A program made the position numbers and the translations under genes. 64,000 bases of DNA. Source: Olivibacter jilunii. GTDB taxonomy: Bacteria; Bacteroidota; Bacteroidia; Sphingobacteriales; Sphingobacteriaceae. The stretch lies in contig NZ_LR027849.1 of the NCBI RefSeq assembly GCF_900607235.1, forward strand, positions 558,001 through 622,000. Reading direction: 5' to 3'. Each line of letters begins with the position of its first letter. The first letter of the stretch is position 1. Shown piece after piece: positions 3,084 through 43,412 of the stretch. Under the pieces are notes generated by a model that searched no databases, was not told the origin of the DNA, and saw only the letters and a list, made by a program, of their open reading frames with translations.

Positions 3084-4304
3084 ATGGATCATTATAAAAA
3101 TGTTCAACGATTGTTTGCCGTAGAGGTGGGCGAAAGATTCGAGGGGCGCCATCAGCTCTCTATGGAAATTCCACTACAGGAATCTCATGGTCAGCCAATC
3201 CTTGTAAGTAAGCAATTAAGAGGTGAGGATTGGGAAATGGATAGTGTTGAAGTTGTTACACCTGAGGGTTTCCTCGTTAGATTTTGTGAATATAGAATAC
3301 GGTCAGAGCAAAAAATATTGTATTACAAGCTAAATACACCTGCAATTTGTTATCATCTGCAGTATCAAGGGAATTGTAATTATTTAGTGACAAAAAAGCG
3401 GACGATATCACTTTATGAAAACCATTATCACATTCTGTCGCTCAAAAGAAATTACGAAAAAATTTTATTTAATAAAGGGGTCTATAGAACGGTTGAGCTT
3501 TATTGCACATCTTCCGCAATGGGTGACCTAAGATCAAAGACTTGTAATTTTGGATCAATTGATCGAAAGCAACAAATATCGAAAATGCAGGGAGAAAGCG
3601 TTTTTTATGGTCCTATTAGACCCGATATAGATAATGTCATTAAGCATCTGGCAGAGAGGGTTCATCAGGAGGATTTTGGAGGAACCGATCATTATAAATG
3701 TACATTTGTTAACTTGGTTACCCAGGCAATTAGGGGAGAAAATAACTATGTAAAATTTAATTGCAATATTCAGATATTTGATTTTTGTGTTAATTGGAAG
3801 GTATTTGTGCACTGCCCAACCATTGCAGAAAATGCATTAAGCGCCCCTGAGTCCATACTGATAAAAAGCGCCGCTGGCACTTTGTTGATCCAAAGTGATT
3901 CTGATAAAGAATTTTCATTATGGAATTTAGTGTCTTATTTTAGGTTTCCATTTGCTATTTATCTCAGTCCGGGAAGATCCCATTATGCATTACTTACATC
4001 AATAAGAAACAATTTGGTGTTTGTCCATTGGTATAAAGGTGTTGCCGCTGTGATTGTGCCTGGAAATGACGCGTTTTTAGAAATAAGTTCTGGGCCAAAT
4101 ATCTTCCATTTTAATAATGGCATTAGTCATTTTGTACTACATTGCCAGTACGAGATGGGGCTGAATGGGCAATCATATAAAGAAATTGAAGAAAAGCTAA
4201 GGTTACATCACCATGTTCAGCAATATTTTCCAAATGTGAATACTGAATACATATACCTAATTTACCAAGAATTAGTGTATAATGTCAAAGTTACTTTAAA
4301 TTAA
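3084..4304 (+). CDS. hypothetical protein, 406 aa, upstream of LanKC
   Basis: Not recognised. It starts MDHYKNVQRLFAVEVGERF and is rich in aromatic residues and beta-strand-like stretches (for example residues 270-350, with VSYFRFPFAIYLSPGRSHYA). No signal peptide, transmembrane helix or known catalytic motif is visible. The last ~50 residues look helical (QSYKEIEEKLRLHHHVQQYF). It is AT-rich like the lantibiotic synthetase gene that follows, but a 478-bp gap separates the two, so they may or may not be one unit. A sensory or regulatory role, or a role in peptide maturation, is possible but unsupported by motifs. Confidence 0.65.
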   Translation: MDHYKNVQRLFAVEVGERFEGRHQLSMEIPLQESHGQPILVSKQLRGEDWEMDSVEVVTPEGFLVRFCEYRIRSEQKILYYKLNTPAICYHLQYQGNCNYLVTKKRTISLYENHYHILSLKRNYEKILFNKGVYRTVELYCTSSAMGDLRSKTCNFGSIDRKQQISKMQGESVFYGPIRPDIDNVIKHLAERVHQEDFGGTDHYKCTFVNLVTQAIRGENNYVKFNCNIQIFDFCVNWKVFVHCPTIAENALSAPESILIKSAAGTLLIQSDSDKEFSLWNLVSYFRFPFAIYLSPGRSHYALLTSIRNNLVFVHWYKGVAAVIVPGNDAFLEISSGPNIFHFNNGISHFVLHCQYEMGLNGQSYKEIEEKLRLHHHVQQYFPNVNTEYIYLIYQELVYNVKVTLN

Positions 4305-4310
4305 TTCGTA

Positions 4311-4436
4311 ATGACAACTGTGTTCCTTTCATATAAACAATGTGATCCCAATTTTACAATTTTACAAAAAAAATCTCCCTGCGTGTACATTGCAGTAGAT
4401 GATTGTAGCTTTGGTATAATAAGAATTGAACAATAA
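4311..4436 (+). CDS. candidate 41-aa peptide between the 406-aa gene and LanKC
   Basis: An ORF too short for routine calling. ATG at 4311 is 6 bases after the stop of the 406-aa gene and the stop ends at 4436. The product begins MTTVFLSYKQC and contains three Cys and several Ser/Thr (LQKKSPCVYIAVDDCSFGII). Position and composition would fit a ribosomal precursor peptide for the LanKC downstream. However, it lacks the LxxLQ leader helix and the canonical S-x2-S-x(2-5)-C labionin pattern of known class III precursors. It may equally be a chance frame or a remnant. Confidence 0.3.
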   Translation: MTTVFLSYKQCDPNFTILQKKSPCVYIAVDDCSFGIIRIEQ

Positions 4437-4782
4437 AATAAGGCCATAAGTCTCCTGACATAGCAAACCCGTTAGATACTATACTTTAGAGTTTTTAATC
4501 CTCAAAATAACATCCAATATGACTTTTTCAATCTCTCATTTACCGTAAGTAACAAGTTTAGTTGAGCAATTACTTTGGCGATTCAAAAAAGGAATCGCTT
4601 GTAACTCAAATGAGCGATGTTATAGGATTCTCTTTGCTGACAACAATAGAGTTTATGATTTATTACTAATATTCATAACTATAGCGACGTGCAAAGAGAT
4701 GTAGTTATGCTGGCTTTTCCCTAAAACATAACCGTTCCCAATTCTAGTCTATATATTTTGAAGTCATTAATTAATAAGCCAT
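4437..4782. other. gene-free leader region upstream of LanKC
   Basis: About 346 AT-rich bases. A perfect 7-bp hairpin (gcgattc 4578-4584, gaatcgc 4592-4598) with a purine-rich loop is present but lacks a T tract. A promoter for the LanKC operon is expected here, but no convincing Bacteroidota consensus was seen. Confidence 0.35.
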
Positions 4783-7482
4783 ATGCCTACTAGCGTTAAG
4801 ATTATTTCGGATAAGCAATGTTTTATCTCTGCGGATAGTATAGATTCTTACTTTAGTGGTAACCAGGTGAAAGAGTATAATGTTTTGTTAGACCAATTTG
4901 ATTTAACTTATGATATAGTTGACTACTATTTACAAGTTGGGAAACCTAAAGGGATTCAAGGCTGGATTATTCATCTTTCTGCAGTGATTTCGCAAGTTCC
5001 CTATTTAATTGACGCTATTCTTCCGGAATTAATTCGCATTCAAGTGCCTTTTAAGATTCCGTTGAATAAGGAAATAGCTGAGAATATACTTTTTGGAAAA
5101 TTCGGATACAGAAATCTCGCCAAAATTGTTTGTATTTACCCTCACGATTCTCAACAGTTACTTAAATTAATTCAATTCTTGCTGGAAAAAACAAAGGATT
5201 TTAAAGGACCTTTAATACCTACTGATTTTCAATTGGGCGGAATTGTTTTCGTTAGGTTTGGAAGTACTAACCCAATCATTAAAATTGATGGTGACGGAGT
5301 TGTTAAGAAGTATTTCTATACAGTTGATGGGAAATTAATTGAAGACAACTATCCAGTTCCTTTTAAATTATATGATGGTTTAGAATGGCCCTTTAGCTCA
5401 ATAACAGCTTATAAAGTCATACCAAATTCGGATAATAGAAAATCTCGTATAAAAGTTTTGAGATCTATAGTGGAGGATTTTAAAGGGTCTGTTCATTTAA
5501 TATCTTATAAAGTAGGGTTGTTTAGAAAGATTAAATGCATTCTAAAAGAGGGGCGATATTGTATGTATTCTGATGATTATGGCCGTGATATACAAGATAG
5601 ACTAAGGTGGCAGTTTGAATTACATAAAGCATTAGAGAACATTATACCTATTCCAAAGGCACTCGATTTTTTCATTAGCAACAAGGACGCTAGTCTTATC
5701 ATTGAATATATTGATGGTGAAATATTAGATAAAAAAATTGTATCTATCTATGATGGAAGAATATGGGCAGATCTAAGTGTCGATAAGAAAATAATAATAT
5801 TCGGTTTTTTATTCCAAATTATCGATATGGTCTTTAAAATTCATCATCACGGATTTGTTCATAGGGATATCACACCAAATAATTTTATAGTTGGTGAATC
5901 AGGAAAGGTGTACATGATAGATTTAGAACTTATGTACTCAATTAACGGAAATATGCCTCGACCTCCGTTTATTCTTGGGACTAAGGGGTTTATGTCCCCA
6001 GAGCAAAGGAGAGCAGAAATACCGACAACTAAGGAGGATATATTTGCAATTGGTGCATTAATGATTGTTTTGTTTACTTGTTTGTTGCCAACGACTTTAA
6101 ATTCTGGGTCAGAAATTGATTTGAAGAATAGGCTTATGGTCCTAATAGGAAACGAAGAACTTGTATGCTTGATATGCTGTTGTCTTCTGGAGAATAGTGA
6201 CAACCGCCCAAATTTAGATACTTTAAAGGAGAGACTTACTAAAATTTATAATGAGAGCAATTTTTCACAACCAATTAAGATATCGAACGGAATAAGATTA
6301 AAGGTTTCCCAGAGCGTAAATTCTGCCATAAATGGACTTAAAAGCAGTGTTTTAGTCGATAAAAATGGTTTATGGTATTCTTCTTCACCGAAAGATAGCT
6401 TTATTAGCTCCAATTCCGAAGGCCCCTATTGTTTATTGACTGGCTTGTTTAACGGAATTCCTAGTGTTTTCTATACGCTATTTGAATTGAGACGAGCTGG
6501 ATTTGACGTTGATAATGTCTTGAAAGATTGCTCCGAAGCAAATCTTAAATATTTAACTGATGAATGTTTTTCAAATTTGGATCAACTTTCTAATGGCCTT
6601 TATTATGGTACATATGGACTTGCAATGATGCTTGCATCTGGTGTAAAAAGCGGGTATATTATCAACAGCGAAGAAATTGAAAAGCTTATATCAGAATGTT
6701 TTAATAGTAAAGTACAAGGGGGTAACATTGCCTTTGGAGCTTCAGGCATGGGGCTTGCATTAATATATTGTTATGATTACTTGAATGCGGAATTTGTCCA
6801 GCAAAAATTAAAGGAAATTTGCAATTTCTTACTTGAAAGCCAAGAAAGCGATGGGTCTTGGTTTACGTCTGAAGATCCAAAAGGACCGGCAAGTAAATAT
6901 TTGGGGCTTTCGTTTGGAATTTCTGGCATTTTGTACTTCCTACTCTCTTATATAAATATATTTTACGATGAGAAGACTGATTTGGCTATTGTAAGAGGTT
7001 TGGATTGGTTAGACAATCAAAAAAGTGAATATGGTGATGCATATTCGTGGACAATAAGTGTGAATAGTTCCGATACCGATCCCTGGTTTGCTAACGGGGT
7101 AACAGGAATAGCGTTCACTTTTATAAGAGCATTTCAGTTTTATAATAATGAGAAATATAAGCGAATTGTTAAAGGTGCCCTTTTAAATCATCCTGAGAGA
7201 ATTGCATATCGTATTCTTGGCCAAAATGCTGGTTTGTGTGGACTTGGAGAGGTCTATTTGGAAGCATACAGTGTTTTTAAAGAGGATATTTGGCGACTGA
7301 GGGCAGATTGGATTGCAGAGTTATTAACAAACTTGTATACAAATATTGACCCCAATTCTTGTTTTTGGGTAATGGATAATTTGAATAATACTGCAGATTT
7401 AATGGATGGTAATTGTGGTACTATTCATTTCCTTGCAAGATGGCTAGAGCCTGAAAAGCTATCGATGCCAATATTTGTCTAG
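4783..7482 (+). CDS. lanKC: class III-like lanthionine synthetase LanKC (lyase-kinase-cyclase)
   Basis: An 899-aa three-domain enzyme that would phosphorylate Ser/Thr in a precursor peptide, eliminate phosphate and cyclise the dehydro residues onto Cys. Residues ~1-220 match the lyase region of LanKC/LanL (PFKIPLNKE, then IYPHD, then GPLIPTD and VFVRFG). Residues ~230-460 are a Ser/Thr kinase with the HRD loop HRDITPNN near 360, a DFG-equivalent MIDLE near 377, and GTKGFMSPEQ. Residues ~500-890 form a LanC-like barrel. The zinc positions are degenerate: DPWFANGVTG replaces WCHG near 766, and GLCGLGE near 816 keeps a Cys but lacks the His. This is why I call it class III rather than class IV. 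The length is normal. It is followed after 44 bp by the FAD-GT fusion gene. The function of the three domains is family knowledge; the substrate is unknown. Confidence 0.85.
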   Translation: MPTSVKIISDKQCFISADSIDSYFSGNQVKEYNVLLDQFDLTYDIVDYYLQVGKPKGIQGWIIHLSAVISQVPYLIDAILPELIRIQVPFKIPLNKEIAENILFGKFGYRNLAKIVCIYPHDSQQLLKLIQFLLEKTKDFKGPLIPTDFQLGGIVFVRFGSTNPIIKIDGDGVVKKYFYTVDGKLIEDNYPVPFKLYDGLEWPFSSITAYKVIPNSDNRKSRIKVLRSIVEDFKGSVHLISYKVGLFRKIKCILKEGRYCMYSDDYGRDIQDRLRWQFELHKALENIIPIPKALDFFISNKDASLIIEYIDGEILDKKIVSIYDGRIWADLSVDKKIIIFGFLFQIIDMVFKIHHHGFVHRDITPNNFIVGESGKVYMIDLELMYSINGNMPRPPFILGTKGFMSPEQRRAEIPTTKEDIFAIGALMIVLFTCLLPTTLNSGSEIDLKNRLMVLIGNEELVCLICCCLLENSDNRPNLDTLKERLTKIYNESNFSQPIKISNGIRLKVSQSVNSAINGLKSSVLVDKNGLWYSSSPKDSFISSNSEGPYCLLTGLFNGIPSVFYTLFELRRAGFDVDNVLKDCSEANLKYLTDECFSNLDQLSNGLYYGTYGLAMMLASGVKSGYIINSEEIEKLISECFNSKVQGGNIAFGASGMGLALIYCYDYLNAEFVQQKLKEICNFLLESQESDGSWFTSEDPKGPASKYLGLSFGISGILYFLLSYINIFYDEKTDLAIVRGLDWLDNQKSEYGDAYSWTISVNSSDTDPWFANGVTGIAFTFIRAFQFYNNEKYKRIVKGALLNHPERIAYRILGQNAGLCGLGEVYLEAYSVFKEDIWRLRADWIAELLTNLYTNIDPNSCFWVMDNLNNTADLMDGNCGTIHFLARWLEPEKLSMPIFV

Positions 7483-7526
7483 CTTTTATTTTACCTCAAT
7501 TTTAGTTAAATCCCAAATGAATAAAA

Positions 7527-10500
7527 ATGAGTAAAATAGCAATCATCATAGGCGCCGGACCAGCCGGTCTTACCGCAGCATATGAATTGTTGAAGAGAAC
7601 AGATATCAAACCTGTCATTCTGGAGAAATCTGGTGATATAGGCGGTATTTCCAAAACAGTTAATTATAAAGGCAATCGAATAGATATTGGCGGTCATCGA
7701 TTCTTTTCTAAATCGGACAGGGTAATGAACTGGTGGTTTAATATTATGCCGGTGGAAACTGTCGGACAGCCTACCATTAATATTAATTATCAGAACAAGT
7801 CCCGGACAATTGATACAGTGTCTACTGGGGTAAACGCAGGAGCAGATCCTGATAAGGTGATGTTAGTTCGCAAACGATTATCCAGGATCTATTTCCTGCG
7901 AAAGTTCTTTACTTACCCTATTCAGCTATCCCTTGACACCCTCACCAAGCTGGGCCTATGGACCACTATTGCTATTATGTTTTCTTATCTGAAGGCGCAG
8001 TTGTTTCCGCGTAATCCGGAAAGCAATCTCGAAGACTTTATGGTCAATCGCTTCGGGAAGGTGTTGTATAACCTGTTCTTCAAGGACTACACAGAAAAAG
8101 TATGGGGCATTCCTTGTAATAAAATATCTGCAGAGTGGGGGGTACAACGGATCAAAGGCGTATCTATCAGCAAAGCTATCCAGCATGCTATTCAATCAGC
8201 CACCAAAAAGAAGAAAGTAACCAGTGGCGACATTGCCCAAAAGGATACTGAAACCAGCCTCATAGAACAATTCCTGTATCCCAAATTCGGGCCGGGGCAG
8301 TTGTGGGAAGAGGTAGCCCGCCAGGTCGAAGAAATGGGAGGCAAGATACTCATGTACCATGATGTAAAGCGCATCTATACTTCTGAAGCTAATAACGCAG
8401 TCACAGCTATAGCAGCCATCAACAATATAACCGGTGAAACCAGCTACATGGAAGGAGATTACTTTTTCTCCACGATGCCGGTGCAGGAGCTGGTAGGAGG
8501 CATGGACGGCAGCGTTCCCGATGACGTTCGGGAGGTGGCTGCCGGCCTCCAGTACCGGGATTTCATTACAGTGGGAATTTTGTTGAAGCAAATGTCCTTC
8601 CAGGATAAGAAGACAGGGGAGTGGAAGCCGCTGCAACTCGAAGATACCTGGATATATATTCAAGAGAAAGATGTTAAAGTAGGAAGGTTACAACTTTTTA
8701 ATAACTGGAGCCCGTATATGGTGAAAGATCCAAATACGGCATGGGTAGGGATGGAGTTCTTCTGTAATAAAACGGATGATTTTTGGAAGAAGTCGGATGA
8801 GGAGATCAAGCAGCTGGCGATTGCCGAGTTGGAGAAAATAGGGCTGGCTTCCGCTGGCAATGTATTGGATACAACGGTGCTAAGAGTAGAGAAGACATAT
8901 CCGGCATATTTTGGGACGTATGAACGGTTTGATTTGGTGAAGGAGTATGTAGATAAGTTTGAGAACTTGTTTCTGGTGGGAAGGAACGGGATGCATAAGT
9001 ATAATAATTCTGATCATAGTATGCTGACGGCGATGGTGGCGGTGGATAATATTGCGACGGGAGTGAAGCAGAAGGCAAATATATGGGGGATTAATACTGA
9101 GCAGGAATACCATGAAGAAACATCAAAGGTTTCTAGCCGGGAAGTTTTAAAGGATCAAAATCAATTAGAAGAATCTTTTAGCATCGATTTTAAGTCCTTT
9201 TTGTCAAATAATAAATTTAACAGGAAGTTGATATCGTTTGCATTTGTAGCAATGTTTATTCAACTTGTAATTTTTAAGTTTTTATATCCTTTTGCCAGTT
9301 TTATTCACGGTGATTCTTTCGTTTACTTGGAGTCTGCTTATCATAACCTGGATATTAATACTCATCCAATTGGGTATTCTAAATTTCTCAGATTATTTAG
9401 TGTTTTTTTTAAATCAGATATTTTGTTGGTAACCTTTCAATACTTGTTATTGGAAATGAGCGGCTTGGCGCTTCTATTTACTTTATTTTATTTTGTTAAT
9501 GTAAGTAAAGTTTTAAAATTGGTTTTATTTGCTTTAATGCTTTTTAATCCTATATTTCTGCATTTAGCAAATTTAGTCTCTTCTGATGCTCTATTTCTGT
9601 CGTTGAGCCTGATTTGGTTTTCTCTATTAATTTGGAACATTTTCAAGCCTAGAAAGTCTATTATTCTTATAAGTGGAATTGTTTTATTCGTTGCCTTTAC
9701 TGTTAGATATAATGCATTATACTATCCAATTATAGCCTTCGCAACCGTCCTATTGTCCAAGAAATTCCATTATTATAAACTCTTAGGTTTGGGCATAGGA
9801 ATGGTGTTCATAATTTTTTTTATTGTGAATACTTCGAATCAGTATTATAAATTAACCGGAGTTAGACAGTTTTCTCCTTTTTCTGGCTGGCAAATAGCTA
9901 ATAATGCTTTGTATGCCTATAGGTATGTTGATAGTGCAAAACGGAAACCTGTAGCAAAAGAGTTTCAGAGTTTAGATATGATGGTGCGAAATTATTTTGA
10001 CACAACCAGAGATGTTAAAAGACATCCACAGGAGCTTCTAATTGCTAGTACAGTTTACATGTGGGATGATAGGTCGCCATTAGAATTATATAAAAAGAAA
10101 ACATTTGAAAATGATTCAATTTCTGGTGGCGTAAAGAAATGGGCATCCCAAGGACCTCTTTATTCAAGATATGGGTATCATTTGATAGGCAAATATCCAT
10201 TTGAATTCATGAAGTATTATTTATTACCAAATGCAATAAAATATTATGCTCCGCCTGTTGAGTTTTTAGAAAAGTATAATGACGGGAAAGATTCCGTACA
10301 GCAAATTGCTCAGGTATGGTTTGATCTCAAAAGCAAATATGTAACTACATTTAATAGAAATTATAAAATAAGTGTTCTTGACTTCTATCCACTTATAATA
10401 GGAGCATTAAATTCGGTCTTTGTTTTGGGTTTGATGAGCTTTATAATAATGAGAGGTCATAATCGGTATCCCATTTTAAGTAAAATTTTGACAATTGCGG

Positions 10501-10709
10501 CAATTTTGTGGATAGTAAATTTCGGATTTAGTGTTTTTGCATCGCCAATAGCCTTAAGGTTTCAGTTGTTCCCTAACATGGTTTTCTTATTAATAGACTT
10601 TTTGATAATTGATTTTCTGTTTAAAGAAGCAAAGCTCGGCGAGATCTCAAATATTCAGGAGGTTATGATAAACCATAAAATTAGTCAAGAAACATTATCT
10701 GCAAAGTGA
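7527..10709 (+). CDS. FAD-dependent oxidoreductase fused to a GT-C type membrane glycosyltransferase
   Basis: A 1060-aa two-part protein. Residues 1-~530 are an NAD(P)/FAD oxidoreductase of the amine-oxidase / UDP-galactopyranose-mutase-like superfamily, with dinucleotide motif GAGPAG at 9-14, the acidic ribose-binding end [19 protein letters not shown], and a C-terminal FAD contact ([14 protein letters not shown]). This is the length of the usual stand-alone enzyme. Residues ~555-1060 are a polytopic membrane domain with about ten helices. An [12 protein letters not shown] loop after the first helix and [12 protein letters not shown] resemble GT39/ArnT-like GT-C transferases. Base composition changes sharply at about 9100: the front half is GC-richer than both flanks and the back half is strongly AT-rich, so a gene fusion is likely. 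It sits between LanKC and a thioredoxin lipoprotein. A sugar-modifying role on the membrane is inferred, not shown. Confidence 0.75.
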
Positions 10710-10730
10710 CTTTTGGAAAAAGTTGTCTAT

Positions 10731-11267
10731 ATGAAGCTGCAATTGTTTAAATATTCTGTCAATCCGTTGCTGGCTGTCTGTCTGCTCGTTTTACTATTGT
10801 TATCAAATTGTAACTTTACAAGTTCTCATTCTTTTCCGTTAAATGAGCCGATAACTACTGGTATGGAAGGAAGAACTTTGCCTTCATTTAATTTGCTATC
10901 AACTAACGGCGTTGCTTTCAATTCTAATGACATTCCTTTGGGTAAGCCTGTAATTCTATTGTTTATTCGTCCGGATTGTCCATTTTGTGAAGCCCAGATT
11001 GATGAAATTATTGATAATATAGAACTATTGATAAATTTCAGAATTTACTTAGTTACTTCATACCCACTGGAGGAATTGAAAGTAATTTACAAGAAGCGTG
11101 ATTTAAAAAAGTACAATAACATTACCGCAGCTTCTGATCCTGAAAACTTTTTTCGGAGGTATTTTTCGGTTAAAAGTGTTCCTTATACAGTTATTTACGA
11201 TGAGCAAAAAAAACTCTCCAGGGTATATGTAGGATTTATAGGTGTGTCAGAAATTTTGCAGTTGTAA
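10731..11267 (+). CDS. TlpA/AhpC-like thioredoxin-fold lipoprotein
   Basis: I choose the ATG at 10731 rather than the TTG at 10713, because it opens directly into a lipoprotein signal with a hydrophobic run and lipobox LLSNC (Cys27). The mature part has an AhpC/TlpA beginning (MEGRTLPSFNLLSTNG), the active site CPFC (Cys83, Cys86) after FIRPD, and a cis-proline-like VPYTVIYDE near the end. It would be membrane-anchored in the periplasm and reduce or shuffle disulfides. It begins 21 bases after the FAD-GT gene and just precedes two secreted peptides with paired cysteines, which are plausible substrates. Confidence 0.8.
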   Translation: MKLQLFKYSVNPLLAVCLLVLLLLSNCNFTSSHSFPLNEPITTGMEGRTLPSFNLLSTNGVAFNSNDIPLGKPVILLFIRPDCPFCEAQIDEIIDNIELLINFRIYLVTSYPLEELKVIYKKRDLKKYNNITAASDPENFFRRYFSVKSVPYTVIYDEQKKLSRVYVGFIGVSEILQL

Positions 11268-11310
11268 TGATCAGGTGTCTGATCATGATTTCTAAGGATA
11301 CTATTTTGGT

Positions 11311-11391
11311 GGGAACGCCGAAAACCACAAGAAAAGAGTAGGCAATCTAAAACTAAAGTTTTTCCTTTTGATTTAAAAAGGGCCTGTAATT
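11311..11391 (+). repeat. duplicated leader of the peptide genes, copy 1
   Basis: The ~80 bases before the peptide-1 start resemble those before peptide 2 (11795-11872). Both carry gaaaacca, agaaaagagta and a run ending in aaaagg 15-20 bases before the ATG. The duplication therefore included regulatory sequence as well as the coding region. Confidence 0.5.
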
Positions 11392-11640
11392 ATGAAACTA
11401 CCGAAAATTCTGTTAAGTGTTATAGGATTAACCTCTTTAGCAAGTGTTGTTTTTGCTTCCAAACTGAGAGAGACGCGAATAGAAAGGATTTTTTATAAAG
11501 AGGACTCGCAAATGCGCTGTACTGTTACAACAATTAAAATGTCCCAAACAACAACTGAAATTACAGTTGTACAGGTTAGATTAAGCACCGCTAAAACATC
11601 AGGGAGATGTGGCTTGCTTCGCCTTATCCAAGCCGTTTAG
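11392..11640 (+). CDS. small secreted two-cysteine peptide, copy 1 (DUF6520-like)
   Basis: An 82-aa protein. A Sec signal (MKLPKILLSVIGLTSL...VFA) is cleaved near residue 22. The mature ~60 residues hold two cysteines at 43 and 73. It is a paralogue of the peptide at 11873: both share ER-x-FYK, C-[ST]-VTT, a TTT run, LSTAKT-x3-C and a terminal IQ, with identical 30-residue spacing between the Cys. The pattern is like small Bacteroidota DUF6520 peptides. Alternatively the T-x2-T-x3-C stretch could be a lanthionine or labionin-type core for the nearby LanKC, though a Sec signal as leader would be unusual. The ATG is preceded by a leader duplicated with copy 2. Confidence 0.7.
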   Translation: MKLPKILLSVIGLTSLASVVFASKLRETRIERIFYKEDSQMRCTVTTIKMSQTTTEITVVQVRLSTAKTSGRCGLLRLIQAV

Positions 11641-11794
11641 TAGTGATCAACTTTTTTATATTACGATTTCTTTTTAAGAGACCCAGAATACATCTATATG
11701 GTAAATGCTTAAACAAAAGTCCTTTTTCTCTAAATTGTCGTTTGATGCGCATCATAGGCTTATTCTTGTTGTCAACAAGAATGGCCGCAATGGG

Positions 11795-11872
11795 GAAGCT
11801 GAAAACCATTAGAAAAGAGTAAGCATATTTATTTTGTAAAGTTAGCCTTTGCTCTTAAAAGGCATCTATTTT
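11795..11872 (+). repeat. duplicated leader of the peptide genes, copy 2
   Basis: Counterpart of 11311-11391, with gaaaacca and agaaaagagta at the same distance from the start codon. It contains no separate gene. Confidence 0.5.
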
Positions 11873-12112
11873 ATGAAAATAGCAAAAGTAATGTTAACAG
11901 CCCTTGGAGTGACAGCTGTTGTTGGTGCAGCACTTGCATCTAGAGCCACTACAGAAAGAGCATTTTATAAATCTGCATCCAACGGTCAATGCTCTGTTAC
12001 CACATTGAGGTTTGCAACTACTACAAACAATCCTGCGGTTCCTTTAACTAGCTTAAGCACTGCTAAGACAACTAATCCGTGCCCTCAGATCCGCACAATT
12101 CAGGACCTTTAA
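11873..12112 (+). CDS. small secreted two-cysteine peptide, copy 2 (DUF6520-like)
   Basis: A 79-aa protein. The ATG at 11873 is preferred over the upstream start at 11849 because it opens straight into the signal peptide (MKIAKVMLTALGVTAV...ALA). Mature-region cysteines are at 40 and 70, with the same spacing as copy 1. The conserved block LSTAKTTNPC and the C-terminal IQ match copy 1, while the central Thr/Asn-rich linker differs. The product is expected in the periplasm or outside the cell. It is the last gene before a strong terminator. A disulfide made with help from the upstream thioredoxin lipoprotein, or a lanthionine made by LanKC, are both open possibilities. Confidence 0.7.
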   Translation: MKIAKVMLTALGVTAVVGAALASRATTERAFYKSASNGQCSVTTLRFATTTNNPAVPLTSLSTAKTTNPCPQIRTIQDL

Positions 12113-12223: not shown

Positions 12224-14920
12224 TTATTTTATGTTAGATATGGCTTTGATTTTTGTAGCACCTATCCGTTGATCGATTTTTAGACCATCTTCAATACCTT
12301 TTGCTTCCGCACTGATTCCTTGTGTCATCCATAATGGCGGAGGCATGTCTTTTAAATAATGGTCAAAGAATTGCTTCATTCGAGTAGTATAATCTAAGCT
12401 TTGTTTTCCATGTATTCCGTGATTGCTTCCTTCATATTCAATTAGCCATGCAATTTTGCCTAACCTCCGAAGCGCATTAAAGAACTCAACGCTCTGCGCG
12501 AATGGAACAGCAATGTCACGGTTTCCATGAACCAGCAGGATTGGTGTTGTGACATCGTCAACGTTAAAAATTGGAGAATTGTTAATGTATAATTCAGGAT
12601 TTTGCCATATCGTTTGGCCAATTCGCAATTGCCCGTTTTCACAAACCCCTTGTAGGCTTCCACCTTCTCTTAAGCTATTGTAGAAGCTTATCAGATCGGA
12701 AACTCCTGCTGTTGCACATGCTGCAGCAAATAAATTGCTGTGCGTTACTATATAATTCGTTTCGTACCCTCCAAAGCTGAATCCTTGTATGCCAATTTTC
12801 TTTTTATTTACGAAGTTAAAATTGTTTAAATATAATGTTCCGCTTTCTACGGCGTTGAGTGCACTTTCTCCTGGTGAACCTATGTTGTAAAAAATATCTG
12901 GAGTAAATACAAGATATCCGTCATTAACAAAGCTTGGAATATTGATTTCTCCCGTAGAATTGCCAGGTGTTAAAAATGCATTTAATCCGTCTGATTTTCT
13001 TTCATAATAGTTAACAATTACAGGATATTGTTTCGTTGAATCGAAATTACTAGGCTTGTATAATATACCCTGATACAGTGTTCCACTTTTATTTCTCCAA
13101 GTATGTAACTCTGAGGTGTACAAGCTCCTATAGCTAGAGTAATCTACATCAATAATAGGTTTAAACGTTTTAAAATCTTTTGTACACAAGTAAACTGAAG
13201 GATGACGGGAATTCGTACGTTTGACAATGAAAGTTTTTGATTCCTTCGCCTTTATGGGCTGGAAGCTTGTGTTTTCTGGTATATAAGGATTATCTGCTGT
13301 GCAAAAAATATATGGTCCCATTGTTAGCATTTCAGGCTGGGATTTCTTGCCAATCTTAATTTTATAAAAGCCATTATTTTTATTGAGCAGATTATATGCA
13401 ACTAAAATTAGTTCTTCATTCTCCCTAATTTGATCTAAGGTTGTTCCAGATTGTAATATGTCGAAGACGATATGGTTTTTAAGACCGAATTCGTTCGTAA
13501 CATTTATTGGAGCTGATTTTTTCATTGGGTCAACTAGCCAGATATCATATCGATCATAAAGTAATACCTTTGAGTCATCCTTCAACCATCCTGCTATTCC
13601 TCGGTTTGATCCAAATCTATCGTATCGATAGTAACCAATCCAATCAGAGTTTATACTCTCTGTTATATTTCGAGAAATTCCAGTTAAGACTTCATATGAA
13701 AAGTAAGTTTTTAGACTATCATTATAGTATATGTAAAATTTGCCAGCGGGAGATAAATGTCCCCAAAAGCTAAATTCCTTTTCCTTAGGTTGTTCTAAAT
13801 GCGTTATCTTAATGGTTTTTTTAACGCTATTGTTCCAGTGGCCTTCACCATGACCAATATTATTTAGATCACTTCCTATAAGTGCTATTTTTTGTCGCTT
13901 TTCTAAGCATATTTCATTATCGGATGCTAGAAGTCTAGTTTTTTTGGTGTTAACATCTATTAAATAGAGATATGATTTGTTATTATGGTGTTTCTCAATA
14001 TCTATAAGCTGTTGAGGTTGAAGTTTAGAATCAGTAAAACTCCAAATATTAAAATTGGCTAAGTTCCCTTTTTGTTTTCCTTCTACTTTACTTTCTTTCA
14101 TTGTAAAATATAGGTAGTTGCCATTGTCACTGAAAGCTTGCAGGTTATCTATTAGTAGCCTATTATTTGTAGGGTTGTATAGGGTGTCAAGAATTGGAAG
14201 TGCTTTTTCGTCAGTACTTTTGTAATAACACAAAGTTCTTTTCCTTGCTTTACCCCCGTCAGTAAGGAAGGCCACTTGCTTTTGTGGACCAAAAATCGGA
14301 GGTGCTAATAACTTACCTTCCCATATTCGACTCTCTCTTAATTCAGGCAATGTAATATATACCAAAATTTCTTTTTGCCTTGCTCTTTCAGGGGCTTCTA
14401 TTGTTAATAATATTCCTTGCCAATTTTCATCTACATAGTATCGGGTAAATTTTGTAAAGACTTTACTTTTCTTAGTTTTAAGATTACGAATTATTAACTG
14501 TTTATTTGGAAATTTTGATTCCAACAATAACCACGGATTGTTTTTATACGGCGACAATTGGAAAGACTCAACTTCTGGGACTATTTCTATTTTTTCTGAG
14601 CCTAATTCGATTATACATAGTGAATCTCCTGGTAGCAAAATAACACCCTTTTTACTATCTCCTGAAATAGCAGGTTGGGATTGATCCGCATACTTTGGGA
14701 TACGTTTTATCCAATCTCCAAAAGTTTCTTTAAAAATGAAACCTTGTTTACTTGATCCCGGTTCATCTATATGGAATGCTGAGTAATTACCATCATTACT
14801 TATTAATGGTATACCGATGCTAAGATTATTGTTGTGATTGACTTTATATGTCCCATTCCTTTGACCTATTACAACATTTTGAACTGCAATGAAAAGCAAT
14901 AATAATAGAAAATTCTTCAT
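12224..14920 (-). CDS. S9-family (prolyl oligopeptidase/DPP-like) serine peptidase, exported
   Basis: An 898-aa protein with a signal peptide (MKNFLLLLLFIAVQNVVIG). A long N-terminal beta-propeller-like region (~residues 30-620) is followed by an alpha/beta-hydrolase domain. The nucleophile motif GFSFGG lies near 715, the acid in HGNRDIAVPF near 801 and the His in GSNHGIHG near 833. It would cleave short peptides in the periplasm. It is the last gene of the SusC-SusD-thioredoxin-GH2-S9 operon, about 250 bp beyond the GH2 gene. S9 enzymes such as FlaP remove leaders from some class III lanthipeptides, so its position opposite LanKC deserves attention. A peptide-nutrient role alongside SusCD is the simpler reading. 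Confidence 0.85.
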   Translation of the reverse strand: MKNFLLLLLFIAVQNVVIGQRNGTYKVNHNNNLSIGIPLISNDGNYSAFHIDEPGSSKQGFIFKETFGDWIKRIPKYADQSQPAISGDSKKGVILLPGDSLCIIELGSEKIEIVPEVESFQLSPYKNNPWLLLESKFPNKQLIIRNLKTKKSKVFTKFTRYYVDENWQGILLTIEAPERARQKEILVYITLPELRESRIWEGKLLAPPIFGPQKQVAFLTDGGKARKRTLCYYKSTDEKALPILDTLYNPTNNRLLIDNLQAFSDNGNYLYFTMKESKVEGKQKGNLANFNIWSFTDSKLQPQQLIDIEKHHNNKSYLYLIDVNTKKTRLLASDNEICLEKRQKIALIGSDLNNIGHGEGHWNNSVKKTIKITHLEQPKEKEFSFWGHLSPAGKFYIYYNDSLKTYFSYEVLTGISRNITESINSDWIGYYRYDRFGSNRGIAGWLKDDSKVLLYDRYDIWLVDPMKKSAPINVTNEFGLKNHIVFDILQSGTTLDQIRENEELILVAYNLLNKNNGFYKIKIGKKSQPEMLTMGPYIFCTADNPYIPENTSFQPIKAKESKTFIVKRTNSRHPSVYLCTKDFKTFKPIIDVDYSSYRSLYTSELHTWRNKSGTLYQGILYKPSNFDSTKQYPVIVNYYERKSDGLNAFLTPGNSTGEINIPSFVNDGYLVFTPDIFYNIGSPGESALNAVESGTLYLNNFNFVNKKKIGIQGFSFGGYETNYIVTHSNLFAAACATAGVSDLISFYNSLREGGSLQGVCENGQLRIGQTIWQNPELYINNSPIFNVDDVTTPILLVHGNRDIAVPFAQSVEFFNALRRLGKIAWLIEYEGSNHGIHGKQSLDYTTRMKQFFDHYLKDMPPPLWMTQGISAEAKGIEDGLKIDQRIGATKIKAISNIK

Positions 14921-15176: not shown

Positions 15177-17876
15177 TTATTCCTTTTCGTTAGCAAGTGC
15201 CCACGTTGCTTCACCACGCCTCATTTTTACTAGGTTTTTTAGAAATACATCATTATTGTTAGATAACATTACAGCCTTTTCTTGCCATTTTATTGCTTCT
15301 TTCCAATTGCCAGTTTTGTAAAGTAAATTGGCGTAAGTATCAACTGACTCGGCAGTTTGATCAAATGTTTCAATATTGTATTTAACGACTTTTGTTGCAA
15401 AATCAAGTATTTCTTTGTCTTCAATATGGAGGAATATGAACCAGGAAATATTGTTTATATGGTAATCGCTATGCTTTAACGCTCTTTCATAATATAGTTT
15501 ATAAAATTTACCCATGTTTTGCCAGTCTTTTTTAATTCTCCAAGAATAGATCATTCTCTTTCCATAGACAAGCTCTTCTCCAATTTTGCCATATTTTTTA
15601 CAAACATTTTGTTGTATAGAATCCCAATTTGGATTCTCTGAATTGTTCAAAAGAAGTGGTTCTATTTCTTCTGCATTTATAATTCTTTTGATTTTCCTGA
15701 GTGTTTCAAGGTCTCCCATAATTTTATCTATCTTTTCCTGGTTTTCCAAGTAAAGATTAAATCCAACATCCTTAGATGTTTGGGTTATGTGTAATAAGAA
15801 CTCTAAATTCTCTCTTAGGAATTTGTGTTTGAGTTGTTTAACATATTCAGTACCCAATAGCGTCACCTTATCCTGGTCTTTTTTTCGCAAAGCCATTAAA
15901 GTTAGTTTTCTAAGGAATGCAGAATCTCTTTGTCCATCGTAATATCGTTCCAACAATTCATTATATCTGTCGTCACTGTCATTAACATCCATATTTTTAG
16001 CTAGGAAGAAACTAGAATCAGCCTTGGGTAAGATGCCTTCAGGTAATAATTGTTTATTGATCGTTCGGATTCGATCTAGAGGTATTTTTATGATTTCTCT
16101 GTCGTAAGTAATTAAGCCATTTTCTTCCCCTTCAACATCAAATGGTTGTGTATAAATTGATGCTGTAAGCCCAAGGGCTTCTAAAAATTTTAATTTCTTG
16201 GTCAGAATTTCATATTTACCGGCTAATTGTGAAGGCTTTATTGTAACATAGCCCCATCCTTTAAGATCATTCCATTGGTGATCGAAAACTGATGTGCCAA
16301 TGCCACCAAATTCTCCTAATACTTTCGCTTTACCCACAATTGCTGGGGGGGCTATAGGATCTGGGTATGAGTGTACATCTGCCATATCACTTTTGATATA
16401 TGGGTTTTCAGATGGGACTCTGAGCTGTTCATCAGTATAAAGTAATTCTCCCGAATGGCCATTTACAAGCCTTGTATTATCTAACTGTTTTACCCATTCC
16501 GTTAACCGCTCTTGATCATAGGCCCCCCAACGCTCGTTAAACAGAACCCATGTTGTAATTGATGGATGATTATATAAATGTGTAATTGTTTCTTGAAGTT
16601 CTTTTTCAAATGCCTCTTTTGCCCCTGCAGGTAGACTTTGATTCGGATTAACAAAGTCTTGCCACACCATTAGACCTAAACTATCACAATAATAGTACCA
16701 TTTAAGAGGTTCGATCTTAATGTGCTTTCTAATTGTGTTGAATCCCATTTCTTTGATTGCTTTAACATCAAACTTTAAAGCATCATCTGTCGGAGCTGTA
16801 TACAGTCCATCTGGCCAATATCCTTGGTCCAGTACTCCTAAATTGTATGTATATTTATTATTAAGGAAAATTCTTTCAACTCCCTTTTTGTCCTTTCTAA
16901 TCTCAACTTTCCGCATCCCAATATAACTTCTAACTTCATCCACTATTTTTCCTTCATATCTAAGTCTAACTGACAAATTATATAGAAAAGGATCGTTAGG
17001 ACTCCAAAGATGAGGATTGGTAATAGAAACCCGTAACTTAGTGTTTGCCTTACCATTTGTAACCATAATTGGTTTACCTCGCTCATAAGTAATTGCTTCA
17101 ATTGTGAGGTTGTCATTTGTATTCGTATTTGTATTGACTGTTATTGAATATAAGCTATTTTCTATATCAGATTCTAATTTTAATGAGGCTATATATGTTG
17201 ACGGTACTATTTCCATCCATACAGTTTGCCAGATACCACTACTTGAAGTGTAATATATGTCTGCCGGATTTAGTACTTGTTTTCCATGTGTGCCAACTCC
17301 CTTGTCTGTAGGGTCGTAAACACGTACCTTGAGTTCGTTATTTTCTTGATTTAAACTTTCAGTTATATCGATGGTGAATCCGACGTAACCTCCCGAATGA
17401 CTGCCAACTTCTTTACCATTGAGATAGACGGTAGCCTGCCAATCAACTGCATCAAAATGTAATAATATTCGTTGATCATTAGTTATTTTTGGTTTTTGGA
17501 TATTTCTGGAATACCATAGATGTTGGTCTGGTAATAGTGCCTTATTAACTCCAGACAATGCAGATTCAATTGGATAAGGAACCAATATTTGACCATCATA
17601 TCTCGCTGGAGGTGGTGCATTTAATTTTGTTATGGCATAATTCCAAAGCCCATTTAGATTTATCCAATGATCTCTTGACAATTGTGGACGTGGATAACCT
17701 GAGTGGGTGTTTTCTGGATTTACTTCTTTTGCCCATCGTGATTGCATTCGAGTTTTCGTCATCTTCCACTGGGCGAGAACTGTATTGTAAATTGGGCACA
17801 AGCAGATTATTATGCAGGTCAATTTGATATAAAAAGTATAACTATTTCTATTAACCATTTTTATGTAGCTGATCAT
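15177..17876 (-). CDS. glycoside hydrolase family 2 enzyme with C-terminal TPR-like extension
   Basis: An 899-aa exported enzyme (signal around residues 12-36). The order is an N-terminal sugar-binding domain (WINLNGLW, then WYSRNIQ), an immunoglobulin-like domain, and a TIM barrel with acid/base LFNERWG near residue 448 and nucleophile LGEFGG near 521. These are the catalytic features of GH2 beta-galactosidases, mannosidases and glucuronidases. After about residue 600 an unusual ~290-residue helical extension ends in a TPR-like repeat (YANLLYKTGNWKEAIKWQEKA). It could start at M7 (MVNRNSYTF). It lies in the operon just after the thioredoxin gene. The exact sugar specificity cannot be read from sequence. 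Confidence 0.85.
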   Translation of the reverse strand: MISYIKMVNRNSYTFYIKLTCIIICLCPIYNTVLAQWKMTKTRMQSRWAKEVNPENTHSGYPRPQLSRDHWINLNGLWNYAITKLNAPPPARYDGQILVPYPIESALSGVNKALLPDQHLWYSRNIQKPKITNDQRILLHFDAVDWQATVYLNGKEVGSHSGGYVGFTIDITESLNQENNELKVRVYDPTDKGVGTHGKQVLNPADIYYTSSSGIWQTVWMEIVPSTYIASLKLESDIENSLYSITVNTNTNTNDNLTIEAITYERGKPIMVTNGKANTKLRVSITNPHLWSPNDPFLYNLSVRLRYEGKIVDEVRSYIGMRKVEIRKDKKGVERIFLNNKYTYNLGVLDQGYWPDGLYTAPTDDALKFDVKAIKEMGFNTIRKHIKIEPLKWYYYCDSLGLMVWQDFVNPNQSLPAGAKEAFEKELQETITHLYNHPSITTWVLFNERWGAYDQERLTEWVKQLDNTRLVNGHSGELLYTDEQLRVPSENPYIKSDMADVHSYPDPIAPPAIVGKAKVLGEFGGIGTSVFDHQWNDLKGWGYVTIKPSQLAGKYEILTKKLKFLEALGLTASIYTQPFDVEGEENGLITYDREIIKIPLDRIRTINKQLLPEGILPKADSSFFLAKNMDVNDSDDRYNELLERYYDGQRDSAFLRKLTLMALRKKDQDKVTLLGTEYVKQLKHKFLRENLEFLLHITQTSKDVGFNLYLENQEKIDKIMGDLETLRKIKRIINAEEIEPLLLNNSENPNWDSIQQNVCKKYGKIGEELVYGKRMIYSWRIKKDWQNMGKFYKLYYERALKHSDYHINNISWFIFLHIEDKEILDFATKVVKYNIETFDQTAESVDTYANLLYKTGNWKEAIKWQEKAVMLSNNNDVFLKNLVKMRRGEATWALANEKE

Positions 17877-18549: not shown

Positions 18550-20091
18550 TTAATATCCCTGATTTTGTACTAGTTTTGTGTTTCTTGATAGTTCAGTTGC
18601 TGAAATTGGGTACCATTGCCAATTTGAGTTCCAAATACCTCCTTTTTCAGGGGTTATTTTTTGCATCACTTGGTCAATTGTACCAGATCTTTTTAAATCG
18701 AGCCAACGATGTCCCCATTCAGTAAAGAGTTCAATCTGCCTTTCTTTTAAAATTTTGTCTATTAAATCTTGTTTATTTTCAACCTGAATTGGTTCTGGAT
18801 TAGATCTTAAATGTATCCGGTTTAAATCAGATGCTGCATCATCCAGTTTATCGAGTTGCGCTCTTGCTTCTGCACGAATTAACAGCTGTTCACTCAACCG
18901 AAGTACCATAGTATATTCGATTGTCGGCTCTGCGGTAGCAACACTTTTATATTTAGTGGGATAGTAAATAGTCACATTGTCTATTATTAAGCTATCTATC
19001 CATTGGTTTCTTCGACCATCAGTACTAGTAAACTGCTTTAATAGGTGAATACTTAATGAAACTGGCCAATCCGGTCCAGGTCCTGTCTCTGGGATTTTGA
19101 AAAACCTTGCTTCTTCCGTCGAATTAATGTACACAGGCTGCAGTTGCCAAACAGCCTCCATACTATTGGCTAGAAAAACATTTTGCAATTCTACCAATTG
19201 GAATAAACCACTATTTTCTATTAATTCTGATGACTGTATTTCGGCATTTGTCCATTCTTTTGTATACAAGTATGCACGAGCTAATAGAGCAATTGCCGCC
19301 CATTTCGTGGGTCTAATTCTCTCATTTGATATGTTCAACAGAGATGCATCAAGATAATCTCTGCTCAAAAGGTCTTTAGCTTGTATGAGATCATCAATAA
19401 TTTGTTTCCATATTTCTGTCTTAGGTGTCCGTGGTAAATTTGAATTTCTCGAAAAGTCAGTTGATAATACTAGGGGCAGATCTCCATAAAGGTTAACTAG
19501 GTAAAAGTAGCAAAATGCACGTACGAATTTCACTTCTCCTAGCAGTTGCTGCTTGACACTTCCGGATAGCGAATTGGAAGTCGAGAGGCCTTCAATTGCT
19601 GAATTTGTTAAGTAAATCATTTGATAACAATTACTCCAGAAGTCAGCTGTCACGGAACTGCTATTAAGTGAGTTCTGATAATAATCAATGTAGGTTTGGT
19701 TAGATGCATTCTCGTATAATTTTAGTTCGTCTGCAGATAATCCCAATAGTGCGGAGGTACTGCGTAGTTCTCCTGATCCAAATGTTCCGGCACTCAATTT
19801 CGTATAAATGCTGGTTACGACTGCGACGGCAGTCGCGTCGGTTTTAAATGCGTTTTCGACTGTGGTGTTTGTAAGTGGTGGATCAATATCTATAAGTTTC
19901 GTACATGAAGAAATTGATAAGAGGAGAATGGAAGAGAAAATTGGTGAAATTCTTAATTTCTTTTTAATTGGAAATAGGAAATATTTTATGTGTTCATCTC
20001 TTGAATTTCCATATTGAGTTGGCTTTCTATAATAATAGAAAATCCTTTCTAAACAAATTTGGAGCCTTGGATATATGTTGCTAGGTTTCAT
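18550..20091 (-). CDS. susD: SusD/RagB-family outer-membrane lipoprotein
   Basis: The partner lid of the SusC transporter. The lipobox SISSC is near residue 63, followed by TKLIDIDPP, the usual SusD mature start. Helical TPR-like substructures follow, and the RagB C-terminal signature GHRWLDLKRSG lies near 465. With only one Met at position 1 the signal would be abnormally far from the N-terminus. The true start is therefore probably an alternative codon about 30-40 residues downstream, near LFPIKKKLRISPIF. It lies 29 bases after SusC. It should bind the imported substrate at the cell surface; given the operon this could be a glycopeptide or peptide. Confidence 0.85.
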   Translation of the reverse strand: MKPSNIYPRLQICLERIFYYYRKPTQYGNSRDEHIKYFLFPIKKKLRISPIFSSILLLSISSCTKLIDIDPPLTNTTVENAFKTDATAVAVVTSIYTKLSAGTFGSGELRSTSALLGLSADELKLYENASNQTYIDYYQNSLNSSSVTADFWSNCYQMIYLTNSAIEGLSTSNSLSGSVKQQLLGEVKFVRAFCYFYLVNLYGDLPLVLSTDFSRNSNLPRTPKTEIWKQIIDDLIQAKDLLSRDYLDASLLNISNERIRPTKWAAIALLARAYLYTKEWTNAEIQSSELIENSGLFQLVELQNVFLANSMEAVWQLQPVYINSTEEARFFKIPETGPGPDWPVSLSIHLLKQFTSTDGRRNQWIDSLIIDNVTIYYPTKYKSVATAEPTIEYTMVLRLSEQLLIRAEARAQLDKLDDAASDLNRIHLRSNPEPIQVENKQDLIDKILKERQIELFTEWGHRWLDLKRSGTIDQVMQKITPEKGGIWNSNWQWYPISATELSRNTKLVQNQGY

Positions 20092-34397: not shown

Positions 34398-34443
34398 AGC
34401 TAAAAATATTAGTATTTTTAAGCTAAAAATATTAGTAGCTTTG
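34398..34443 (+). promoter_or_regulatory. promoter with two exact 17-bp direct repeats (operator candidate) before dinB
   Basis: The 17-mer agctaaaaatattagta occurs at 34398-34414 and again at 34421-34437, a 23-bp period. The second copy runs into TAGCTTTG (34436-34443), a match to the Bacteroidota -7 box TAnnTTTG, 24 bases before the dinB ATG at 34468. A repressor bound to both copies would cover the promoter, a natural arrangement for a damage-inducible cassette. Confidence 0.65.
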
Positions 34444-34467
34444 TTCCGGTACTTTGGTGAAAAATAT

Positions 34468-35634: not shown

Positions 35635-35635
35635 G

Positions 35636-42266: not shown

Positions 42267-42267
42267 A

Positions 42268-43410: not shown

Positions 43411-43412
43411 AA

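Follow-up and report, generated by a model that had tools for sequence, protein, structure and literature searches.

According to the passages of PMC7268733 on their distribution, the lanthionine synthetases LanKC (class III) and LanL (class IV) come mostly from Actinobacteria and Firmicutes, and Bacteroidetes are rich in class I systems. In class III enzymes such as ThurKC (PDB 8sam/8sap), a lyase, a kinase and a cyclase follow one another, and the peptides are co-encoded. Here we analyze a relative of these enzymes encoded at positions 4783-7482 of a 64,000-nucleotide stretch of Olivibacter jilunii (contig NZ_LR027849.1, positions 558,001 to 622,000, part of a 6.7-Mb genome), referred to below as the window. 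Comparison with related proteins suggests that this enzyme descends from lanthionine synthetases but falls in a clade of its own, found mainly in Bacteroidota, in which the Ser/Thr kinase appears to be the only activity that is strictly conserved. The system around it is real, and its chemistry is probably not, or not only, the formation of lanthionine.

Open frames were taken from a simple longest-frame caller, which is not a gene finder. The locus comprises the following features, in window coordinates:

4783..7482, + strand: LanKC/LanL relative of 899 residues with RamC_N, kinase and LANC_like domains, all above the Pfam cut-off
7527..9122, + strand: oxidoreductase half, dependent on flavin adenine dinucleotide (FAD), of a fusion protein (residues 1-532), matching NF005546
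9168..10709, + strand: membrane glycosyltransferase (GT) half of the same fusion (residues 548-1060), GT-C by predicted fold
10731..11267, + strand: thioredoxin-fold protein (Pfam) with a CPFC motif, possibly a lipoprotein, with its ATG at 10731
11392..11640, + strand: secreted peptide 1, 82 residues, two Cys, Thr-rich, with a Sec-like N-terminus by eye
11873..12112, + strand: secreted peptide 2, 79 residues from the ATG, two Cys, Thr-rich, with a Sec-like N-terminus by eye
12224..14920, - strand: S9 (prolyl oligopeptidase family) peptidase (Pfam) with a GFSFG motif, convergent with the peptide genes
15177..17876, - strand: glycoside hydrolase family 2 (GH2) protein with a tail resembling tetratricopeptide repeats, with homologues in the O. 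domesticus locus L065 and in locus L134
17943..18536, - strand: DsbH-like thioredoxin, by profile matches
18550..20091, - strand: SusD-like outer-membrane protein, by BLAST to the SusD of L067, a second locus of this genome (itself SusD in Pfam), and by the O. domesticus order, SusC then SusD
20121..23543, - strand: SusC-like TonB-dependent transporter, by a BLAST match of the L067 SusC and by its counterpart in O. domesticus, which is SusC

A sequence-only reading of this DNA had placed the LanKC, the FAD-GT fusion, the thioredoxin, the two related peptides and the facing S9 peptidase correctly, and their domains were confirmed. Its limits for the cluster, 3084 and 12112, have to be moved. 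The frame at 3084-4304 (406 residues) is probably no member, as it ends 478 nucleotides upstream of LanKC and, of the neighbourhoods compared, that of O. domesticus alone contains a homologue, and the unit passes 12112 to reach at least the end of the SusC gene at 23543. LanKC and the fusion are 44 nucleotides apart, the fusion and the thioredoxin 21, and the gene order of SusC, SusD, GH2 and S9 in O. domesticus matches that of the window.

In the 4783-7482 product, RamC_N covers residues 58-205, the kinase 290-477 and LANC_like 555-896, giving the lyase-kinase-cyclase architecture in a single protein. Its AlphaFold2 model (predicted local distance difference test score, pLDDT, 86.7; predicted template-modelling score, pTM, 0.85) best matches CuvL (PDB 8car/8cav), which we take to be a class IV synthetase, over nearly its full length (Z 39.3, 763 residues, 5.4 Å), and ThurKC with Z 33. 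The NCBIfam scores likewise rank LanL (265 bits, cut-off 650) above LanKC (197.9 bits, cut-off 575), but both cut-offs are missed, and in the tree the protein falls outside the reference synthetases. With class III enzymes it shares the domain order, a DxE kinase motif, a cyclase free of zinc ligands and co-encoded peptides, whereas it differs in the lyase site, in its HRD catalytic loop, in having Sec-like peptides without LxxLQ, and in its GT-C and SusCD partners. Unlike the class IV enzymes CuvL and VenL, it has no Cys-Cys-His zinc site, a class IV trait, the aligned places holding Ala-Asn-Ala.

The kinase residues K255, D362, N367 and D380 are retained. The lyase site consists of I62, H64, K91, K114, D148, R158 and a Tyr, corresponding to K65, H67, K94, K117, D152, R163 and R191 of ThurKC, so that five of the seven residues match and K65 and R191 are replaced by Ile and Tyr, respectively. 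In the passages of PMC10604976 that deal with ThurKC variants, K65A and R163A show no turnover, K94A yields unmodified peptide only, D152A reaches at most five dehydrations, R191A gives phosphorylated intermediates, and H67A a mixture of dehydrated and phosphorylated species. The same Lys/His pair is included in the lyase residues of VenL, named by homology to the OspF family in the corresponding section of PMC2843593, which also reports that the VenL kinase domain alone phosphorylates its peptide. The filing of the locus under class III lanthipeptides is thus at odds with the low scores, the position in the tree and the Ile in place of an essential lyase Lys.

The best match on plasmids, a Haematobacter massiliensis "lanthionine synthetase LanC family protein" (plasmid pOT1-4, 27% identity over 97%), is placed with the family in the tree, although its long branch is flagged as unsure. 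Unlike the window enzyme, it retains K65, H67, K94, K117, D152 and R163 together with the zinc Cys-Cys-His, and none of the 13 features annotated in its surroundings is a peptide, GT-C or SusCD gene; a peptide query against plasmids returned no match. An anti-phage role of LanKC was considered and rejected, since each of the 25 PADLOC matches listed (of 29) has its best-matching stretch on the kinase region, some extending slightly beyond it.

We compared the catalytic residues of 56 RamC_N-bearing family proteins, window included, with those of seven references from plasmid records, comprising the Haematobacter protein and six proteins annotated as LanKC/LanL. The truncated proteins L170, L178 and L179 were excluded from the counts, and one of the scans for relatives used a single peptide pattern, so that its 43 loci (6 of which were dropped as duplicates) are those that keep the pattern. 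The kinase Lys, Asp, Asn and Asp are present in 56/56 family proteins. Among the lyase residues, K117 is retained in 52, and the others are K65 in 2, H67 in 27, K94, D152 and R163 in 13 each, and R191 in none; the references have each of these in 7/7, except R191 (6/7). No family protein has all five of K65, H67, K94, D152 and R163, nine have four, and 41 have one or none. The RamC_N domain is missing altogether from 17 of 73 family proteins, which form one clade (support 100/100), and 16 of the 73 tree rows have RamC_N and kinase without a cyclase domain; four rows bear another C-terminal domain in place of the cyclase. Where a cyclase domain is present, the zinc Cys-Cys-His occurs in 2/53 family proteins and 2/7 references (Kitasatospora LanL and Haematobacter). 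Because the lyase residues are eroded or their domain deleted, and the cyclase is sometimes missing, the kinase is the common denominator of the family.

The O. domesticus enzyme has Lys at position 65, but has lost H67, K94 (Arg), D152 and R163; as it stands in the same gene set, the cluster does not seem to need the lyase. We rejected the stronger claim that the lyase is simply dead in the window, since in its own clade the lyase site is still largely intact, and limit it to the rest of the family.

The lyase-less clade consists of 17 kinase-LanC proteins of 697-784 residues from Chitinophaga, Niastella, Longitalea and others (L151, L152, L154-L156, L158, L160-L164, L168, L169 and L173-L176). 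A TlpA-like protein faces 16 of the 17 and SusD 15, and many of these loci have a small upstream protein that resembles a DNA-binding regulator by eye. An additional, separate RamC_N-kinase gene lies on the opposite strand in L152, L158 and L169.

The neighbourhood of the window enzyme is conserved in its own clade, formed by two Olivibacter and three Chitinophaga loci (starred in the kinase tree, support 95/85). A GT-C enzyme, a thioredoxin and a facing S9 peptidase occur in 5/5. In O. domesticus, LanKC, the fusion and the thioredoxin (38%, 68% and 32% identical, respectively) are accompanied by three peptides and face S9-GH2-SusD-SusC; Chitinophaga japonensis has LanKC, fusion, thioredoxin and peptides facing S9, and in C. 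rupis and Chitinophaga sp. GbtcB8 two separate GT-C genes replace the fusion. In one genome (G023, L134), the fusion, thioredoxin, peptides and S9 occur without LanKC. The co-occurrence of peptides, FAD-GT and thioredoxin with LanKC, for which the sequence-only reading had called, was thus found in both genera, and the LanKC homologues were seen to share neighbours.

A wider arrangement appears in the order to which Olivibacter belongs. In a sample of 400 genomes, RamC_N was found at E≤0.001 in 29 (the window's included), 24 of them above the Pfam cut-off, and neighbourhoods were taken for all 34 listed RamC_N places, window included. MauE is present in 32/34, a facing TlpA-like protein in 30/34, and facing SusD and SusC within 9 kb in 29/34; the other five are L071, L077, L081, L091 and the window, whose SusCD lies further out. 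From the 206 first-look SusC candidates in the window's genome, we roughly estimate that a facing SusC would lie within 9 kb by chance in at most about 14% of cases, and the binomial P for 29/34 is near 2e-20, a rough figure as the loci are related by descent and not independent. In the phylum (395 genomes, whole LanKC query), a search that undercounts, as two candidates were scored per genome, gave at least one relative (G647) besides the window's genome and otherwise matches to the kinase region. LanK-MauE-peptide sets facing SusD-SusC were also seen on contigs labelled as Myxococcales (L150, CAJCIZ010000226.1) and Beijerinckiaceae (L177, CAJCIQ010000183.1), both from metagenome-assembled genomes of other phyla by label, where they may reflect either a binning error or transfer.

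MauE itself is absent within 9 kb of the window LanKC, and the window thioredoxin matches the MauD profile weakly (29 bits, cut-off 189). The C-x-C motif of the MauE homologues is invariant (17/17), and Pfam assigns the L074 protein to MauE. In contrast to the helpers of methylamine dehydrogenase, these MauE homologues stand beside small Sec-like peptides and SusCD. For Streptomyces, PMC7794033 notes MauE and MauD in candidate families of ribosomally synthesized and post-translationally modified peptides. We found no description of a LanKC-MauE/SusCD association in the open-licence literature, judged mostly from search listings. The partner set of the window, which had been called unusual, is so in comparison with class III clusters, but in this family the combination of redox partner, small Sec-like peptide and facing SusCD is widespread, and the window represents one version of it.

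The fusion protein of the window has 1060 residues, of which 2-532 match the FAD oxidoreductase family NF005546 with 837 bits (cut-off 418), and no Pfam match was reported for the GT-C half. The model of this half (pLDDT 82.1, pTM 0.85) is predicted to resemble Pmt4 (Z 21.2) and Pmt1-Pmt2 (Z 21.1) over 335-347 residues, followed by oligosaccharyltransferase and ArnT (Z 17.4). It is thus predicted to have the GT-C fold of Pmt1-Pmt2, Pmt4 and ArnT, but is less than 15% identical to them in these alignments and differs in being fused to an FAD oxidoreductase. The loop that follows its first long helix contains Asp49 (numbered within the half), which is invariant (16/16) and followed by Ser50 in an invariant Asp-Ser pair; this Asp is a candidate for the catalytic acidic residue of the first outer loop, where Pmt enzymes have an Asp-Glu pair. 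In 101 genomes of the order, only two proteins match the GT-C half at E≤1e-20, one being the window's own. Grouping loci after inspection of residue patterns and neighbours gave a "window-type and related" set of 17, of which all but L066 entered the residue count (16), and in 13 of the 17 a GT-C gene lies within 9 kb, 10 of the 13 on the same strand. C. rupis, GbtcB8, YR573 and others encode the GT-C half unaccompanied by the FAD half, and the travelling partner of LanKC is thus the GT half, not the FAD half. A membrane enzyme of PMT-like fold beside Thr-rich, Sec-like peptides suggests O-glycosylation.

The two halves also differ in composition. The guanine-cytosine (GC) content is 44.6% in the FAD half, 31-36% in LanKC, the GT half (31.2%) and the thioredoxin, and 38-43% in the peptide genes, and at third codon positions it is 51% in the FAD half versus 29.2% in the GT half, making the fusion one open frame with two histories or constraints. 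The AT-rich mosaic described by the sequence-only reading is therefore real, but it is no proof of the acquisition proposed there, and no mobility gene was recognized adjoining the locus.

Mobility genes do occur in L067 (G000:C9:55001-75000), which encodes a RamC_N-kinase protein of 817 residues whose C-terminus has, in place of LanC, a segment that looks hydrophobic by eye together with an extra domain. Downstream are MauE, a two-Cys peptide and a facing TlpA-SusD-SusC set, and the kinase gene lies beside relaxase, MobC and TraG genes. The label "Prop" (propeller), given to the extra domain by eye, was dropped, as Pfam returned no family, and the domain is left unnamed. In 7 of the 34 order loci, a gene homologous to the TraG-type coupling gene that L067 carries (Pfam was run on L067 only) lies just upstream of LanK, and L079 has an integrase and RteC.

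MauE occurs in 42 of 61 genomes of the order. From its 76 places there, leaving out known LanK loci, we picked 20 by hand, which show that LanK-less modules exist, not how frequent they are. None of the 20 has a LanK domain, all have SusC and SusD, 18 have TlpA and 19 a MauE frame (L125 has none). Most have small two-Cys peptides, and L108, L122, L124 and L125 have no peptide under the selection rule. A base module of redox helper, secreted peptide and SusCD thus exists without LanK, which looks like an add-on to it. L109, L114, L116 and L124, all LanK-less, contain a stand-alone gene of about 340-390 residues homologous to the L067-type C-terminal domain; judged by this homology, it is a gene-fusion link between LanK-less loci and L067-type kinases.

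The two window peptides share 31 of 79 aligned residues. Neither contains LxxLQ or the strict Ser-x2-Ser-x2-5-Cys motif, in agreement with the statement of the sequence-only reading that no canonical precursor is present, but both carry the class III core motif in its Thr form, as TAKTSGRC and TAKTTNPC, and thioethers are possible in them. The peptides of the loci compared have Sec-like starts by eye, and those compared between LanK and LanK-less loci were filtered by hydrophobicity. In a set of 39, left after the removal of five chance frames (four in L091, one in the window), 30 peptides contain C-x-[IV]-x-[ST], versus 1.8 expected from shuffles, and 25 contain [ST]x2[ST]x2-5C, versus 11.4 expected, an enrichment that the shuffles overstate since the peptides are alike by descent. 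C-x-[IV]-x-[ST] is found in 23/33 peptides beside LanK versus 1/16 in LanK-less MauE loci (p=3e-5); likewise, Ser/Thr within eight residues of a Cys amounts to 0.30 versus 0.19 (p=6e-6), and Thr alone is commoner beside LanK (p=0.01). The candidate peptides of L141 (Chitinophaga sp. YR573; the first of two) and L143 have no Cys, and their synthetases keep the lyase-site pattern IHKKDRY, so that a thioether cannot be the common product. DUF6520 (PF20130, gathering 25.4) was rejected as a firm family, peptide 2 scoring 13.6 bits, two relatives 22.2 and 14.6, and peptide 1 being unmatched.

We tentatively favor, at slightly less than an even chance, a reading centered on the kinase, with a Sec-secreted peptide that is phosphorylated, and perhaps dehydrated, inside the cell, O-glycosylated outside it and provided with its own TonB-dependent receptor. 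Most likely, the kinase of the 4783-7482 enzyme would phosphorylate Thr and Ser of the two co-encoded peptides in the cytoplasm, and in the window's own clade, with Lys65 replaced by Ile and other lyase residues kept, some of the phosphate may still be eliminated. The modified peptide would be exported via Sec, the fused GT-C enzyme would add sugars to Thr and Ser as it emerges, the thioredoxin would set the redox state of its cysteines, and the S9 peptidase would trim it. The facing SusC-SusD operon would then be a dedicated outer-membrane receptor for the product. Beyond the observed gene sets, domain identities and residue losses and the predicted folds, we infer here that the peptides are the substrate, as well as the order of the steps, the sugar and the direction of transport. 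We further hypothesize, as a possible but doubtful generalization, a separate Bacteroidota modification class, in which lanthionine synthetases would have turned into dedicated peptide kinases, with the lyase worn or deleted and the cyclase optional; the peptides would be O-glycosylated by PMT-like GT-C enzymes and taken up or displayed via SusCD, and the class would have spread partly on conjugative elements.

Several observations weigh against this kinase-centered reading. The 16 window-type and related proteins keep H67 in 15, K94 in 12 (Arg in the other four), K117 in 15, and D152 and R163 in 13 each; position 65 is Ile in 13, Lys in two and Val in one, and this uniform Ile65 looks selected, an adaptation and not decay. 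Given the uniform Ile65 and the mostly kept lyase residues, elimination may persist in altered form in the window's clade. The whole trifunctional fold appears to be retained, to judge from the model, as if elimination still mattered, and in the ThurKC passages cited above K65A and K94A show no build-up of phosphopeptide, so that a damaged lyase need not leave a working kinase. The class III core motif, which both window peptides have in a Thr version, is enriched in window-type peptides (11 of 15 rows versus 5.5 expected, P 0.002, two of the rows, L134_7161 and L134_19768, probably not being peptide genes). Overall Ser/Thr is not significantly higher beside LanK (0.214 vs 0.189, p=0.07) and acidic residues are rarer (0.055 vs 0.113, p=3e-5), and the two peptide sets may differ for reasons besides LanK. 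Finally, SusCD genes are common in these genomes, the best Foldseek E for the GT-C half is only 0.012, and three of the 13 GT-C neighbours lie on the other strand.

Some of these points favor a true class III/IV-type lanthipeptide pathway, in which the enzyme would phosphorylate, eliminate and cyclize at Thr/Ser and Cys of the two peptides, the Sec signal would act as the leader, and the S9 peptidase would remove the leader remnant. The predicted full-length match to CuvL and ThurKC, the lyase residues that the window keeps, all but K65 and R191, and the Thr-type core motif that the two peptides carry are consistent with it, as is the prolyl oligopeptidase LanPB, encoded in one family of class III clusters according to the section of PMC7268733 on these. 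Nevertheless, we consider this pathway, although the main rival, rather unlikely: the window has Ile at the position where ThurKC K65A abolishes turnover, O. domesticus has lost four lyase residues within the same genus and cluster, some relatives have cysteine-free peptides, and the scores lie far under both NCBIfam cut-offs.

Another reading, to which we give a clearly lower probability, is that the kinase does not modify the peptides but acts as a regulator, phosphorylating a cellular protein and thereby controlling expression or export of the peptide and its SusCD receptor. L067 and three of its relatives resemble a receptor kinase in that a segment that looks hydrophobic by eye and the extra domain come after the kinase, and this domain also stands alone in LanK-less loci, as does the MauE-peptide-SusCD set in the picked loci. 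The HRD Arg is present in 36/36 family proteins and absent from 5/7 references, which also fits a regulator. However, the peptides adjacent to LanK differ around their cysteines, as a substrate would, though their acidic residues differ too, and a LanC-like domain is retained in 53 proteins. A chance neighbourhood, with LanKC, FAD-GT, thioredoxin and peptides unrelated to one another on an acquired AT-rich stretch, could draw on the uneven GC content of the operon and on L134, but has next to no probability, being refuted by the same neighbours in 5/5 loci of two genera, although the Olivibacter LanKCs are only 38-39% identical.

Elsewhere in the window, three genes at 41124-44210 match PADLOC NsnA, NsnB and NsnC, a candidate anti-phage system, and a PD-Lambda-4_A match (PADLOC) lies at 47547-51365. 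A domain search at 34441-38572 identified a Y-family DNA polymerase and, after it, a protein of the DNA polymerase III alpha type, a pair that presumably resembles an SOS mutagenesis cassette.

If the kinase-centered reading is true, a three-step enzyme for making antibiotics can lose all but its first step and acquire a different function, and this enzyme family would be linked to the SusCD receptors that are plentiful in Bacteroidota. Annotation based on domains would presumably file such loci as lanthipeptide clusters, assigning the wrong chemistry if the lyase is dead in most of them. The reading would also make testable what purpose is served by the small secreted peptides whose genes neighbour those of MauE and SusCD.

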